This document shows, piece after piece, positions 5,367-56,139 of a DNA stretch of 64,000 nt (within the stretch, counting starts at the first letter, position 1; each line of letters begins with the position of its first letter). Position numbers and translations under genes: made by a program. Source of the stretch: Halorussus pelagicus (lineage in GTDB: Archaea; Halobacteriota; Halobacteria; Halobacteriales; Haladaptataceae); assembly GCF_004087835.1 (NCBI RefSeq), contig NZ_CP035119.1:2914001-2978000 (forward strand), given 5' to 3'. The notes beneath the pieces are model-generated. The model had not been told where the DNA came from. It saw nothing but the letters and a program-made list of their open reading frames with translations, and did no database searches.

Positions 5367-6965
5367 ATGTCCCAAGAGACCATCGACGTGGCTGAGGTGA
5401 GCGCCGGGAAAGGGGGCGAGGACGGCGACCCCGGCGACCCCGTCGAGTTGCCGGTCGTGGAGGTACTGACCGGCCGGGCGTTCATCACCGGAAAAAGCGG
5501 CTCCGGGAAGTCGAACACGATGAGCGTCGTCGCCGAGAAGCTCTTAGACGGCGGATATCCGGTAATGCTTGTGGACACAGATGGTGAATACTACGGTCTC
5601 AAAGAAGAGTACGAACTTTTACACGCCGGGGCCGACGAGGAGTGCGACATTCAGGTCAACCCCGAACACGCGGAGCGACTGGCGTCGCTGGCGCTGGAGG
5701 ACAACGTCCCCATCATCCTCGACGTGTCGGGCTATCTGAACGAAGAGGACGGCAAGGAACTGCTGAAAGCGGTCGCCCAACAGTTGTTCGCCAAGGAAAA
5801 GAAGCTCAAGAAGCCGTTCCTGATGGTCGTCGAGGAAGTCCACGAGTACATTCCCGAGGGCGGCGGGATGGACGAGTGTGGCCGGATGCTCATCAAAATC
5901 GGCAAGCGCGGGCGCAAGCACGGTCTCGGCATCGCGGGTATCAGCCAGCGCCCCGCCGACGTGAAGAAGGACTTTATCACGCAGTGCGACTGGCTCGTGT
6001 GGCATCGACTGACGTGGAACAACGACACCAACGTCGTCGGCCGAATCCTCGGCACCGACTACGCCGACGCCATCGAGGACATGGGCGACGGCGAGGCGTT
6101 CATGACGACTGACTGGTCCGAGGAGACCCGCCGGGTGAAGTTCCACCGCAAGCAGACGTTCGACGCCGGGGCGACGCCCGGACTCGACGACTTCGAGCGC
6201 CCGGACCTCAAGTCGGTCAGCGACGACCTCGTGAGCGACCTCCGCCAGATTAGCGAGGAGGAAAGCCAGCGCGAGGACCGCATCGAGGAACTTCAACAGG
6301 AACTCCGCGAGAAGGAAAGCCACATCGAGGACCTCGAACGCCGACTAGAGGAGGCCCGCGAGATGGAAGAGGTCGCCGACAAGTTCGCCAAGGCGATGCT
6401 CGACACCTCGCGGAACCAGCGCGCGAACCCCTACGTCGAGACCAGCGGCGGGACGATAGAGCGCCCACGCGCCCCGCGAGGGCAACAAACTGGCGGGCGG
6501 GACCCGCAAGCCACCGGACGAGACCAGCAGGCGGACCTCGGCGGGTTCGAGCAGGACGATGCGGCGGACGGCGAGGAATCGGTCGAGACCGACAGCGACT
6601 CCGGAGCAAGCGAGGACCCCGAGCGCGACGACGAGGCGGCCAACCGGAACCCCACTGACGCCATTCGGGAGGAACTGGACGCCCTCGAACCGGTCGAGCG
6701 CGGAATGTTGGCCCACTACCTCCGGCAGGGTCCCGCGACGCCGACCGACGCCCACGTCGTCGCTGGCGGTCCCGAGGACCGCGAACTCGCGTACAACCAC
6801 AACCGGACGCTGCGCCAGCGCGGATTCGTCCAACACGCCGGGAGCGGCGAGTACGTCGCGGCTCTGCCGAGTCTGCTCGCGGCGCTGACCGACGGCGAGA
6901 TGGACGACGACACCCGGACCGAGGCGCTAGAAGCGGTGGCCGAGGAGTTGCCGGACGTGGAGTAA
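5367..6965 (+). CDS. HerA-like/DUF87 P-loop ATPase
   Basis: A 532-residue ATPase. I chose ATG at 5367, which lies about 35 bases after a TTTATG-like TATA element; an in-frame GTG at 5346 is possible. The Walker A motif is GKSGSGKS (residues 42-49), followed by VDTDGEYYGL. Walker B is FLMVVEEVHEY near residue 150. A charged coiled coil covers about 295-340, then a low-complexity acidic linker, and the last 90 residues look like a winged helix. It belongs to the HerA/VirB4-type hexameric translocase superfamily. No nurA is adjacent, so a role in end resection is not supported by context. The neighbouring dinB hints at DNA repair. Confidence 0.85.
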   Translation: MSQETIDVAEVSAGKGGEDGDPGDPVELPVVEVLTGRAFITGKSGSGKSNTMSVVAEKLLDGGYPVMLVDTDGEYYGLKEEYELLHAGADEECDIQVNPEHAERLASLALEDNVPIILDVSGYLNEEDGKELLKAVAQQLFAKEKKLKKPFLMVVEEVHEYIPEGGGMDECGRMLIKIGKRGRKHGLGIAGISQRPADVKKDFITQCDWLVWHRLTWNNDTNVVGRILGTDYADAIEDMGDGEAFMTTDWSEETRRVKFHRKQTFDAGATPGLDDFERPDLKSVSDDLVSDLRQISEEESQREDRIEELQQELREKESHIEDLERRLEEAREMEEVADKFAKAMLDTSRNQRANPYVETSGGTIERPRAPRGQQTGGRDPQATGRDQQADLGGFEQDDAADGEESVETDSDSGASEDPERDDEAANRNPTDAIREELDALEPVERGMLAHYLRQGPATPTDAHVVAGGPEDRELAYNHNRTLRQRGFVQHAGSGEYVAALPSLLAALTDGEMDDDTRTEALEAVAEELPDVE

Positions 6966-8126
6966 GTCGGGACTTTCCGACGATTATAGGGTGTATTCAA
7001 AAGTGTTGGCACATGCGAAAGCGAGTAACGTAACAGAAATCACTAAATCCGTAATTTAGTCCTTATTCACCCCCTCTTTTATCAGCTGTAGTAGCAAGTC
7101 TGAAAGAAATATGATGTTTTGAGATTGTCGCTGATCTATATTATCTAAATACCTATTCTTATCCGGATTCTGCTTCCGGTGCTTGAGAGGGTTAAACAAG
7201 CCTTGTATGGAGCCACTGAATAGGAGCATAACTCCTGTCTGTTCATTATCGCTCTCTCCCAACGTGAGTGGTCCATTATTCGGAGAGAATGCATGTTCCA
7301 TCAATGCCTTCCCATACTGATCGGTGAACTCTTCGCCTGTAAGTTCATCCACACGTTCCTCAACGATTTGTATCGCTGTTTCTGCGGCATCAGCATACTG
7401 GCCACTTTCAAAAGAAGGAGAACATCGTGCCTTCAATTCTTCGTCAATATGTTTGAATGGTAGTTGCACTTCTTCTGAAGAGTTGTTTTTGTGATTTTCT
7501 TTATATGAATCGATGACCTGAGAAACAAGGCTTTGAAGTGTTTTAAGATGGTCATTTCCCTTCTCCTCACCATCCTCAAGTCGCTCAGTTCGTGGAATAA
7601 GCCGTGTACCTAAGAGGTCACCGTCTTGAAAAGCTAATAAATGAACGCCACTTGAATTTATATCAACTATAATTTTATCCAATTCTGTTTCGCTATCTTT
7701 TTGACGGAATTGTCCGTTCAGATCCTGTATGTGTTTATTTATTGATGCATTTGTGTCATTATTTCTCGCCTCAATCAATACTTGTTCAAATTCTTGAAGC
7801 CAATTAATACCGTCTGAATAAATGAATATAGTGCTCTCACGTTTCGATTTTATGCCTCCATGGTATGATTCTTTTTTATACCGTCCTTGCGTGAGGAGAT
7901 AGGCACCTCCTTCATCATAACCGATGTCCACACGAGCAACATTCTCGCCAGCCCACTCCCCGCTTTGATACTTCTCTCTATTTAAGCGCTCGCTTAGTTC
8001 CATTGTGAGACGTATCCAGAAACACTATACTAATTAATATCTGTTCCGAATTAGAAAACCAGAACAAATAGTGGTAGGCCCTTTCAACTGGGCGGGCTTT
8101 TACTGCCGAGGGGACTACTACTGAGC
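6966..8126. other. low-GC accessory segment
   Basis: Base composition changes abruptly just after the HerA-like gene and returns to GC-rich before 8127. The segment uses A/T-ending codons and long A/T runs that are absent from its neighbours. It holds one gene on the minus strand. No integrase, terminal inverted repeats or target duplication were seen. It reads as horizontally acquired DNA. Confidence 0.7.
7056..8003 (-). CDS. TIGR02391/Ymh-like protein with degenerate HEPN-type motif
   Basis: A 315-residue protein from the low-GC segment, with Lys/Asn/Ile-rich composition unlike the acidic neighbours. Residues 1-135 form an uncharacterised, probably mixed alpha/beta region. Residues about 195-315 match my memory of the TIGR02391 (Hypoth_Ymh) domain: FESGQYADAAETAIQIVEER, then GKALMEHAF, then LFSGSIQGLFNPLKH. 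That family normally ends its third block with RNPxxH, an RX4H motif as in HEPN ribonucleases; here F270 replaces the Arg while H275 remains. Such proteins often occur in defence or restriction islands. A TATA-like AATTAGTATA lies upstream on the minus strand. Function unknown. Confidence 0.6.
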   Translation of the reverse strand: MELSERLNREKYQSGEWAGENVARVDIGYDEGGAYLLTQGRYKKESYHGGIKSKRESTIFIYSDGINWLQEFEQVLIEARNNDTNASINKHIQDLNGQFRQKDSETELDKIIVDINSSGVHLLAFQDGDLLGTRLIPRTERLEDGEEKGNDHLKTLQSLVSQVIDSYKENHKNNSSEEVQLPFKHIDEELKARCSPSFESGQYADAAETAIQIVEERVDELTGEEFTDQYGKALMEHAFSPNNGPLTLGESDNEQTGVMLLFSGSIQGLFNPLKHRKQNPDKNRYLDNIDQRQSQNIIFLSDLLLQLIKEGVNKD

Positions 8127-8399
8127 ATGAACACGCTGGCGCGGGCGGGCGACGACCGATGGCGTCTCCCCCAGCACGCCTACCTCGTGGTCTACGACGA
8201 GCGCGAGACCGAACTGCTGACCATCTACGACTGCGGCGCGGCCCAGAAACCGCCCTCGGCGCGAATCCTCGGAAACCTCGTCCGGGTGAAGGCCGACCAC
8301 GAGTTGGAGAACACCCCCACTGGTTACATCGTAAGGATGCGCGAGAAGTCGGTGCTGGAAAAACAGGACGAGGACCACTGGCGCATCCTCGCGGAGTGA
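8127..8399 (+). CDS. conserved hypothetical protein, 90 aa
   Basis: A small soluble protein with typical acidic, high-GC haloarchaeal composition. It begins MNTLARAGDDRWRLP and contains a beta-rich middle (AYLVVYDERETELLTIYDC). I do not recognise the family. It follows the low-GC segment, and a TATA-like element TTTTACTG lies about 30 bases before the ATG. Confidence 0.7.
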   Translation: MNTLARAGDDRWRLPQHAYLVVYDERETELLTIYDCGAAQKPPSARILGNLVRVKADHELENTPTGYIVRMREKSVLEKQDEDHWRILAE

Positions 8400-53885: not shown

Positions 53886-54098
53886 ATGACGGCAGTCAAA
53901 GTGATCAAGGTCCTCGGCACCTCCGAGGAAGGGTGGGAGCAGGCCGCCCACGAAGCGGTCGAACAGGCGAGCGAGACTATTGAGGACATCCACGGCGTCG
54001 AAGTGGAGGACTAGACCGCGGACGTGGAGAACGGCCGGATTCAGGAGTACAAGACGACTGTCGAAGTCGCGTTTCCGGTCCACCAACAGCAGGAGTGA
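53886..54098 (+). pseudogene. dodecin, interrupted by an in-frame TAG
   Basis: Frame MTAVKVIKVLGTSEEGWEQA to HGVEVED (42 residues), then TAG at 54012-54014. It continues in the same frame TADVENGRIQEYKTTVEVAF to the TGA at 54096-54098. Together this is a full 70-residue dodecin, a flavin-binding dodecameric protein. The TAG is one base from CAG (Gln) or TGG (Trp). Termination there would remove the last two beta strands. No other lesion is present, so the mutation is recent, strain-specific or a sequencing error. Confidence 0.8.
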
Positions 54099-54130
54099 GC
54101 GGCGGCCGGGCGGTCGGGCGGTCGATTTTT

Positions 54131-54173
54131 CACCCGAACTTGTCCGGTTTCAGGAGCGACACCAGTCCGACCA
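54131..54173. repeat. 43-bp direct repeat, left copy
   Basis: Identical to 55601-55643 at 41 of 43 positions and in the same orientation. On the minus strand it would encode the last 14 residues (LVGLVSLLKPDKFG) and stop codon of a paralogue of the membrane protein at 55600-56139. The halocin C8-like gene lies between the copies. Sequence beyond the repeat differs. Confidence 0.85.
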
Positions 54174-54315
54174 CAGCGAGGTGACTGCGAGCGAATGGAC
54201 TCGACTGACTACCGGACCGTGAGCCGGTAACGAAGCGATATCTCCGGCTTACCCGTCATGGCCGTGATTCTACAGGATACTTTGAGATTCAAGCAGCGAA
54301 GATTACTCAAAATAC

Positions 54316-54340
54316 GAAGAGTATTTTATAAATATTCTTC
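54316..54340 (+). promoter_or_regulatory. AT-rich promoter with near-palindrome before the halocin-like gene
   Basis: A 25-base near-palindrome with arms GAAGA..TATTT and AAATA..TCTTC centred on a TATA-like TTTTATAAA, 42-66 bases before the ATG. The whole stretch 54280-54381 is very AT-rich compared with its surroundings. It may bind a dimeric regulator over the TATA box. Confidence 0.5.
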
Positions 54341-54381
54341 AGTCGAAAATATTATCTCTGTATATTTCATCCTTTCAGCTG

Positions 54382-55491
54382 ATGTCTGAGAAAGATGATG
54401 AGATGGGTGGAATAAATCGGAGAAACCTCATCAAGAGCTCTGCCGCCGCAGGTGCGCTCGGTACGAGCGGCGGAGCGCTGAGTTCGGTGTTCGGTACTGT
54501 CCGGGCGGAAGAGGCCACGGCCAGCGACATCGAGCAGATCAAGCAGGCACCGGGCGTCCAACAGATTCTTGACGAACTCGGCGTCGAATCGCTTCCGGAC
54601 CCCGAGAAAGTCGAGAAGCGACGCCTCGAAGGCGACGGCGAGGTCACGGACGGCGAACTCGTCATGATGAAAGTCGAGTTGAAGTACGGGACGCTCCTCG
54701 CCGCAAAGCGGAACGGTCAGATCGGGACCGTCTTTACGTTCGATAGGGACCTCTCGTCGGCACCGACCAACTACTCGATAGTGACTGAGACGGGCGGGTC
54801 GATAGCGAGTACCCGCTCCGACGTTGAGTTCGCGCGGGGCGTTACCGACGCCGAGGAGGAACGCGTCCTGTCAACGCTCGACGTTGACGGTAAGATCGAG
54901 CGAACGAGGATACAGGCGACCACGGCCATCGACGGGTTCCGCGTGAAGTTGGCAGTGACCGACCCGGAAACCGACGAACTGGAAACGCCGGAGTACCTCG
55001 TCAACGTCGGCCGAGGGTTCGACCCGAAATCCGAGGAGTTCACTGGGCCATCGGCTAGTCTGCGCTCCGTCTCCGCGTCCGGCCACACCTCCCAGCGCGT
55101 CACGACGGAGGGCATCGGAACCAAAATAATCGCGGACATCCTCAAGGATTGGCTCCTCGCCAACGTCATCAGTGGGACGCTCGACGAACTCGGCATCGAG
55201 TGTGACGACACCTGTACTAACTGTGGGCTGTGGATTTACGACGTAGTGACTGCCTGCGGGACGTGTGTCGGCTTCTGTTCGAGCAGCGTGAGTGGCGTCG
55301 GTGCGATCCTGTGCGTCGCTTGTTTCTACGCGTTCTGTAGCAAGCCCATCAGCGGTGAGGCGAACTGCGCGGCCTGTATGGCGTGTCTCCTCACGGGCGA
55401 CGAACCCGACGTTCCCCCGAACCCGCCGAACGCCTTCCTCAACTGGGTCTGGGACGAACTGCCGTCGCCGCCGTCGCTCCCGTCCATCTGA
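54382..55491 (+). CDS. halocin C8-like antimicrobial peptide precursor
   Basis: 369 residues. Tat signal INRRNLIKSSAAAGALG (11-27). Residues about 45-270 form a soluble domain in the position of the HalI immunity part of the halocin C8 precursor. Residues about 271-340 are a Cys-rich hydrophobic core with 12 Cys (274, 278, 281, 292, 295, 299, 311, 314, 319, 329, 332, 335) set in Gly/Ala/Val-rich helices. A Pro-rich tail of about 30 residues ends ...PSLPSI. Halocin C8 itself has 10 Cys and no such tail (from memory). I infer export as a folded precursor and cleavage near residue 270. The gene lies between 43-bp direct repeats. Confidence 0.78.
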   Translation: MSEKDDEMGGINRRNLIKSSAAAGALGTSGGALSSVFGTVRAEEATASDIEQIKQAPGVQQILDELGVESLPDPEKVEKRRLEGDGEVTDGELVMMKVELKYGTLLAAKRNGQIGTVFTFDRDLSSAPTNYSIVTETGGSIASTRSDVEFARGVTDAEEERVLSTLDVDGKIERTRIQATTAIDGFRVKLAVTDPETDELETPEYLVNVGRGFDPKSEEFTGPSASLRSVSASGHTSQRVTTEGIGTKIIADILKDWLLANVISGTLDELGIECDDTCTNCGLWIYDVVTACGTCVGFCSSSVSGVGAILCVACFYAFCSKPISGEANCAACMACLLTGDEPDVPPNPPNAFLNWVWDELPSPPSLPSI

Positions 55492-55548
55492 CGATAACTG
55501 GCGCGTTTGTCGTCCTCCGGTTTCTCGCCGTCATTTCACCGAGCAAAC

Positions 55549-55575
55549 GGACCCGAAAGCGGCGCTTTCGGGTCC
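55549..55575. terminator. 12-bp hairpin between convergent genes
   Basis: GGACCCGAAAGC and GCTTTCGGGTCC form a perfect 12-bp stem with a 3-base loop, 58 bases after the halocin-like stop and 25 bases beyond the stop of the opposing membrane gene. It probably terminates both. Confidence 0.65.
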
Positions 55576-55599
55576 AGTTCCCGTCCGGCATCGATTCGG

Positions 55600-56139
55600 T
55601 CACCCGAACTCGTCCGGTTTCAGGAGCGACGCCAGTCCGACCAGTCCAAGGATAACCCCGAAAACCGCCGCGTCCGCGGCGGCCCAGAGCGAGTCCGCCA
55701 GAAACGCGTCGGCTGCGAAACCGAGGAGTCCGATTCCGAGGAGGAGACCGACCGCGCCGACCGGTCGCGCTGGTCCCATCGGAAGCGACGGCCCGACGAG
55801 GTGAGCGAGCGCAAACGCGACCAGTGCGACGAACCCCGCGAATAACTCTCTGTTAAGAAAGGACTGGCCCTCCGGGCCGACGAGCGCCAGCACGCCGAGT
55901 GAGACGGCCCCCGCGAGCAGGACGGCGACGCCTTCCTGTCGGGTCGAGAGTCGGTTCGAGACCCGCGAAAGGTGGAGGTAGCCGAACCAGACGACGACGA
56001 GAACGGCGACGCCAGCTACCTTCGCCAACACGTCGGGGTCCGTGAAGTCCTCGAACGAACGGAGGACCATGGCGAGGAAGATGAGACCGACAAGTGCGTA
56101 CCCGTACGGACGAAGTCGGTCGAACGTGTTCGCTACCAT
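55600..56139 (-). CDS. six-helix membrane protein, 179 aa
   Basis: Six hydrophobic helices spread evenly over the protein (about 14-30, 40-56, 71-88, 98-114, 125-145, 153-175). It ends LLKPDEFG. It lies tail to tail with the halocin-like gene, and its 3' end is duplicated on the other side of that gene. It could be a host gene used as an insertion site or a membrane immunity factor; nothing in the sequence decides this. The start at 56139 has TTATTATCGC about 25 bases upstream. Confidence 0.7.
   Translation of the reverse strand: MVANTFDRLRPYGYALVGLIFLAMVLRSFEDFTDPDVLAKVAGVAVLVVVWFGYLHLSRVSNRLSTRQEGVAVLLAGAVSLGVLALVGPEGQSFLNRELFAGFVALVAFALAHLVGPSLPMGPARPVGAVGLLLGIGLLGFAADAFLADSLWAAADAAVFGVILGLVGLASLLKPDEFG

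Follow-up and report, generated by a model that had tools for sequence, protein, structure and literature searches.

A repeated membrane-gene end around a halocin-like gene of Halorussus pelagicus: a possible scar of acquisition by recombination

The effector-immunity modules of type VI secretion and Rhs/CDI systems offer one close precedent for the locus described here; the likeness would lie in an antagonistic gene and its partner being gained by recombination. For these modules, the available portion of PMC5361080 proposes homology-facilitated illegitimate recombination, with displaced 3' ends and orphan immunity genes left behind. The present locus differs in that its product is a secreted halocin-like protein, its host is an archaeon, its stub is the 3' end of the partner gene itself, and the partner (memb) has an immunity role as a candidate only. 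A second precedent is provided by thaumarchaeal integrated elements in the 3' ends of protein-coding genes, whose direct repeats keep the end of the target gene intact (PMC6563490, in the text accessible to us). A hallmark of integrative elements, direct repeats that overlap the target gene at its 3' end, is also present here. The elements analyzed there are described as complex and carrying many genes, whereas the DNA enclosed here is 1.4 kb long, contains one gene and no recombinase, and has a repeat that ends at the stop codon of the partner. The third comparison is halocin C8, for which production and immunity come from one gene according to a title cited in PMC12893001; the loci of the halocin-like gene (hal) have a separate, recurring membrane partner instead. 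Titles and abstract openings on halocins with direct repeats, integration or genomic islands, and immunity or membrane proteins, an incomplete sample of the literature, contained no report of gene-end repeats flanking halocin genes or of this partner.

The repeat and the DNA it encloses

The locus lies in the window, by which we mean the whole 64-kb stretch of DNA that was analyzed. Its features are as follows.

53886 to 54098, plus strand: dodecin gene, left neighbor of the stub; TGG-to-TAG nonsense codon relative to G007, G009, and G013
54130 to 54173, minus strand: left repeat copy (the stub), the isolated last 44 bp of a memb gene, 13 full codons and the stop; reads VGLVSLLKPDKFG and then stop
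54174 to 55599: enclosed DNA, 1,426 bp, with hal as its sole gene; single copy in the genome
54174 to 54381, plus strand: AT-rich leader of hal, 44% GC versus 65% for the window; TATA-like TTTTATAAATATT at 54324
54382 to 55491, plus strand: hal, 369-aa halocin-like precursor with a twin-arginine type N-terminus and a Cys-rich C-terminal domain
55549 to 55575: palindrome, 96% match to its own reverse complement, between the 3' ends of hal and memb
55600 to 55643, minus strand: right repeat copy, the 3' end of intact memb; reads VGLASLLKPDEFG and then stop
55600 to 56139, minus strand: memb, 179-aa multi-pass membrane protein gene, convergent with hal

The initial annotation had reported agreement at 41 of 43 bases between 54131-54173 and 55601-55643, and this count was reproduced; with one more base on the left (54130-54173 and 55600-55643), the copies are identical at 42 of 44. 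The mismatches (54141/55611 and 54161/55631) are both nonsynonymous and none is synonymous, with memb ending in LASLLKPDEFG-stop and the stub in LVSLLKPDKFG-stop. The outer edge of the right repeat coincides exactly with the memb stop codon, and identity in the flanks outside the pair falls to background (19/60 and 20/60). Continuation of the repeat beyond the stop codon was rejected; a gapped alignment gains little and the ungapped identity is background. A chance origin is excluded because the pair aligns with a BLAST E of 5.5e-15 and the stub sequence is matched at just two places in the genome, both in the window. A search for exact 20-mer direct repeats across the whole window found none, the 44-bp pair escaping it because the mismatches interrupt it. 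The description of the right copy as the end of a membrane protein gene, and of the left as an isolated end with its stop codon, was likewise borne out: the left copy has the frame and stop of memb, is preceded by no gene sequence, and now abuts dodecin. The dodecin TAG is in frame, replaces a Trp codon, and lies right beside the stub; it looks like a recent nonsense mutation.

The same annotation had placed only a bacteriocin-like gene and its AT-rich promoter between the copies, and the contents of the insert agree, the TATA-like box being situated ~58 bp ahead of the hal ATG. The palindrome is a possible two-way terminator. No recombinase or transposase was found between the repeats, where hal is the sole plausible gene, and inspection by eye of 40 bp at each end of the insert revealed no matching terminal inverted repeats. 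hal shares with halocin C8 (TIGR04449) a twin-arginine type leader, a long N-terminal part, and a Cys-rich C-terminal domain. Its match to PF10518 (21.2 bits) is slightly below the 22.7 cut-off; across 14 homologues, six Cys are invariant and the RR pair is nearly so. At the level of profiles, the likeness is narrower: TIGR04449 gave no match to the window hal up to E 10 and has no place at the window, and an hhalign comparison of the hal profile with TIGR04449 aligned 62 columns, in the leader region only (probability 95). The label "halocin-like" given initially is therefore retained as a statement on architecture, with the activity putative.

Matches to hal at E ≤ 0.001, several of them short or weak, were found in 26 of 392 genomes of the order, counting that of the window. 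One Haloferax larsenii plasmid encodes a full-length homologue that is 49% identical. Phage records gave no hal match, viral contigs contained neither the stub pattern nor hal, a plasmid search returned no memb homologue, and scans of genome contigs for memb and hal gave no match. Carriage by a virus or plasmid was rejected on this basis, the single hal plasmid homologue notwithstanding. Codon usage is uninformative as a sign of separate origins, the codon adaptation index of hal (0.616) not separating it from memb (0.588).

Among the 17 other genomes of the genus, none has memb at this site, and two have distant memb homologues elsewhere. The purM-dodecin-GNAT order is kept in three of them: G013 has ~84 bp and no gene in the dodecin-GNAT interval, where G007 and G009 have an unrelated gene of ~300 aa. 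Because the syntenic sites lack hal and no relative has memb here, both genes are extra at this site. Neither an empty site with a single memb end nor a full left memb copy was found among the 17. An exact 35-bp direct repeat flanks purM in G002, with no hal nearby (L034 1741-1775 and 3215-3249).

memb-type genes recur beside hal, mostly in convergent orientation

memb had no match in Pfam and none over threshold in NCBIfam; a simple hydropathy scan of its product, initially described as having six helices, gave five segments above 1.6. It is rare, being found in 10 of 392 genomes. In G241 (contig C22), from another haloarchaeal family, a memb homologue (~33% identical) is convergent with a hal homologue ~80 bp away. 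A memb profile was built from nine sequences and compared with 94 loci, namely 72 TIGR04449 places (one of 73, G382, was left out as it lies at a contig edge), 21 hal places, and the window. Nine matches within about 2 kb of hal were obtained in 8 of the 94 hal or halocin loci versus 0 of 21 comparison stretches; two of the eight (window and G241) contain training sequences, and the L081 matches have their orthologue in a third training sequence (G186). No match came from the 72 TIGR04449 loci. In six of the eight loci, the match is 80-220 bp from hal; those in L081 (G251) are 0.6-0.75 kb away and belong to a resident copy that is broken, and that in L232 is 1.9 kb away. The L084 match is weak and biased (E 0.0015), and on the H. 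larsenii plasmid the match (L052 9282-9566), adjacent to hal, falls where no gene is listed. Collectively, hal and memb-type genes are shown to be a recurring, mostly convergent pair, and memb is a candidate immunity protein for the hal product. A membrane protein with no Pfam or over-threshold NCBIfam match is thereby named as the partner that recurs with a family of halocin-like precursors and as their candidate immunity factor.

Direct repeats around hal in other genomes

The 94 loci were scanned for direct repeats of 35-450 bp, 0.9-3.5 kb apart, at E ≤ 1e-7, thresholds that were chosen after examples had been seen; among hal loci L068-L076, only G019 had 7-kb flanks and the others were scanned with 1.5-kb flanks. 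The scan gave 17 repeat pairs, of which six, in six loci, bracket hal, versus 1.6 expected under random placement (P 0.002 / 0.001). With the window left out, five bracketing pairs remained versus 1.5 expected (P 0.005). Repeat pairs are as dense or denser in non-hal DNA (10 in 303 kb, 29 stretches) than in these loci (17 in 1,294 kb), and the unusual feature is the placement of repeats around hal, not their density. By our own reading of the open frames, four of the five bracketing pairs outside the window are gene 3' ends, from rfcS, proC, a permease gene, and a small membrane gene. Repeat lengths across loci are 44, 73, 66, 55, and about 400 bp, and the target genes differ. tRNA attachment sites were rejected, since a search of 13 hal loci found no tRNA gene. 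The initial comparison with mobile elements at tRNA genes thus fails in its details, given also the absence of a recombinase and the varying repeat lengths and targets. In L175, L176, and L180, the repeats of ~37-39 nt resemble signal peptides or coding sequence of a repetitive kind. L172 (G056) has a 118-bp repeat (77%; 6274-6391 and 8203-8320) on either side of a halocin gene that is situated at a contig end; this repeat could not be tied to a gene end.

One analogue has an empty counterpart. The rfcS 3' end is present twice in G251 (73 bp, 84%), and the DNA between the copies contains a hal homologue and a convergent small membrane gene that scores weakly against the memb profile (E 0.11). 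The search of its genus covered 29 genomes with an rfcS match, partial in two of those other than G251, and in G251 alone was hal matched within ~1.5 kb downstream of rfcS. In G186, the closest to G251, the rfcS end runs directly into the sequence that flanks the isolated copy of G251. At the informative sites of the repeat, the intact G251 copy follows G186 first and the isolated copy follows it afterwards, giving one native/foreign switch, and the odds of so clean a switch among 15 sites are 0.0007. A single switch of this kind is expected after one crossover with an incoming rfcS end. Integration by recombination is therefore supported by both the empty site and the switch, and since the right copy is also chimeric, a single crossover fits better than one-sided joining. 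For integration at a gene 3' end, as initially suggested for the window, support is thus by analogy with G251; at the window itself, no genome of the genus supplied the memb-bearing site for comparison. Thirteen of the 18 differences between the G251 copies are at third codon positions. G186 has no hal there but an intact memb homologue, convergent with rfcS; this gene looks broken in G251 (L081 ~6690-7110 compared with L094/L101), and the hal module of G251 sits between rfcS and this broken resident.

The permease 3' end of G228 is repeated (about 400 bp, 88%) around a halocin gene in the geometry of the window: an isolated 3' fragment with its stop, the halocin gene on the plus strand, and the intact gene on the minus strand. 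The copies show 12, 8, and 37 differences at first, second, and third codon positions, thus mainly at the third (37/57), and the bias in G228 and G251 resembles that of alleles from different lineages. The isolated copy is 94% identical to G337, the nearest of ten species compared by rfcS (94.8%). The intact permease gene is a mosaic of three parts, the middle one similar to G397, G400, and G391. The comparison demonstrates recombination between lineages, yet not one simple event.

Two further loci repeat other gene ends. G348 has a 55-bp repeat (89%) of the end of a small membrane gene, with the stub before hal and the intact copy downstream. The stub region is colinear with G241 contig C17 (81% over 816 bp), where a complete 120-aa membrane gene is situated directly upstream of hal, in the same direction and not convergent; its assignment to the memb family was unsupported by the memb profile (E 15). 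In G348, the stub is the remnant of a complete gene, the outcome that the initial annotation had set as refuting its reading, though here in a distant relative. In G318, the repeated gene, which we take to be proC, has its 3' end around a halocin gene (66 bp, 79%), and a further 43-bp copy matches at 98%. The three copies (L192 602-644, 5985-6050, and 8265-8337) are distributed around halocin DNA in the proC-proB interval, as would result from two tandem insertions of elements. On the H. larsenii plasmid, one insertion sequence end, presumably of IS6-like type, occurs as two direct copies (L052 7843-7868 and 9690-9715) with the hal homologue between them, and a transposase gene similar to that type is located directly upstream of hal on G241 C22.

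Origin of the repeat

We lean, with reserve, toward the 44-bp repeat being a recombination scar of hal acquisition anchored in memb, in which the resident 3' end was left as the stub. The ancestor would have had memb convergent with dodecin and no hal, and the incoming DNA would have carried hal next to memb from a close relative. Homologous recombination with the resident memb would have occurred on the memb side, and on the other side an illegitimate joint would have formed within the resident gene, 44 bp in, as in homology-facilitated illegitimate recombination; alternatively, a circle with hal and a memb 3' end might have integrated by one crossover. Either route would leave memb intact with the incoming 3' end, hal gained, and the resident 3' end and stop as a stub beside the old neighbor. 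A homologous anchor on one side and a junction within the resident gene on the other is a geometry that fits both the window and G228. Acquisition anchored in memb is favored because the hal-memb pair recurs, including in another family (G241 C22), because G228 has the same stub geometry, because G251 and G186 provide one switch and an empty site, and because repeats bracket hal more than expected, copies differ mostly at third codon positions, and the insert has no recombinase. Since microhomology-mediated joining occurs in Haloferax (PMC7521656) and one halocin promotes DNA uptake (PMC6759562), both as stated in the portions available, haloarchaea may offer conditions suited to such a mechanism in the window. 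Points against it are the lack of an empty or donor-like site among the relatives searched, the chimeric right copy of G251, a permease mosaic in G228 that exceeds one event, repeat density that is not raised, post hoc thresholds, and codon usage that does not separate hal from memb.

Duplication and loss is a possible though rather doubtful alternative. Two full memb genes, arising by tandem duplication or integration of a hal-memb circle, would once have flanked hal, and the left one would have been deleted save its last 44 bp. The initial annotation had raised loss of a second paralogue, and G348 and G241 supply a direct precedent, with a complete membrane gene in G241 C17 where the 55-bp stub of G348 stands and an intact copy downstream in G348. 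The precedent is from a distant relative, though, and concerns a gene whose membership in the memb family is not demonstrable and whose direction is the same as that of hal; the window would need both a duplication and a deletion, and no relative has two memb copies. We regard as unlikely a small element integrated site-specifically by an integrase acting in trans, with the memb 3' end as its attachment site. The location of the repeat at a gene 3' end suits such an element, and the end repeated three times around the halocin gene in G318 is as in tandem integration. The repeats lack a recombinase gene between them, however, their lengths and targets vary among loci, and memb, being rare (10/392 genomes), would be a poor fixed target. 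As reported in the accessible text of PMC6563490, 14 of 68 thaumarchaeal elements are in protein-gene 3' ends and crenarchaeal att sites span 29-69 bp, a range that includes 44 bp; the haloarchaeal elements described in the corresponding part of PMC7921747 use tRNA genes and carry XerC/D. Transposition or staggered-break insertion of hal, with the 44 bp as a target-site duplication, would account for one cargo gene enclosed by direct repeats and has a parallel in the insertion sequence ends flanking the H. larsenii homologue. It is highly improbable, given an insert that is single copy, has no transposase, and has no matching terminal inverted repeats by eye, and it would make the adjacency of hal and memb a coincidence.

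Beyond the scar itself, a tentative generalization is conceivable in which halocin-like genes move among haloarchaea as cassettes without a recombinase, using nothing but homology to enter ordinary genes at their 3' ends, with orphan memb copies as landing pads. If so, an immune-only cell would become a producer in one step and keep the stub as a scar. A local oddity would then become a testable rule for the movement of archaeal antimicrobial genes, with gene 3'-end stubs as footprints of acquisition.

The genome of the window encodes a second hal paralogue (29%) at G000:C1:425203-426195 and three TIGR04449 halocin C8-type genes elsewhere (G000:C1 417137, 1557201, and 2303422).
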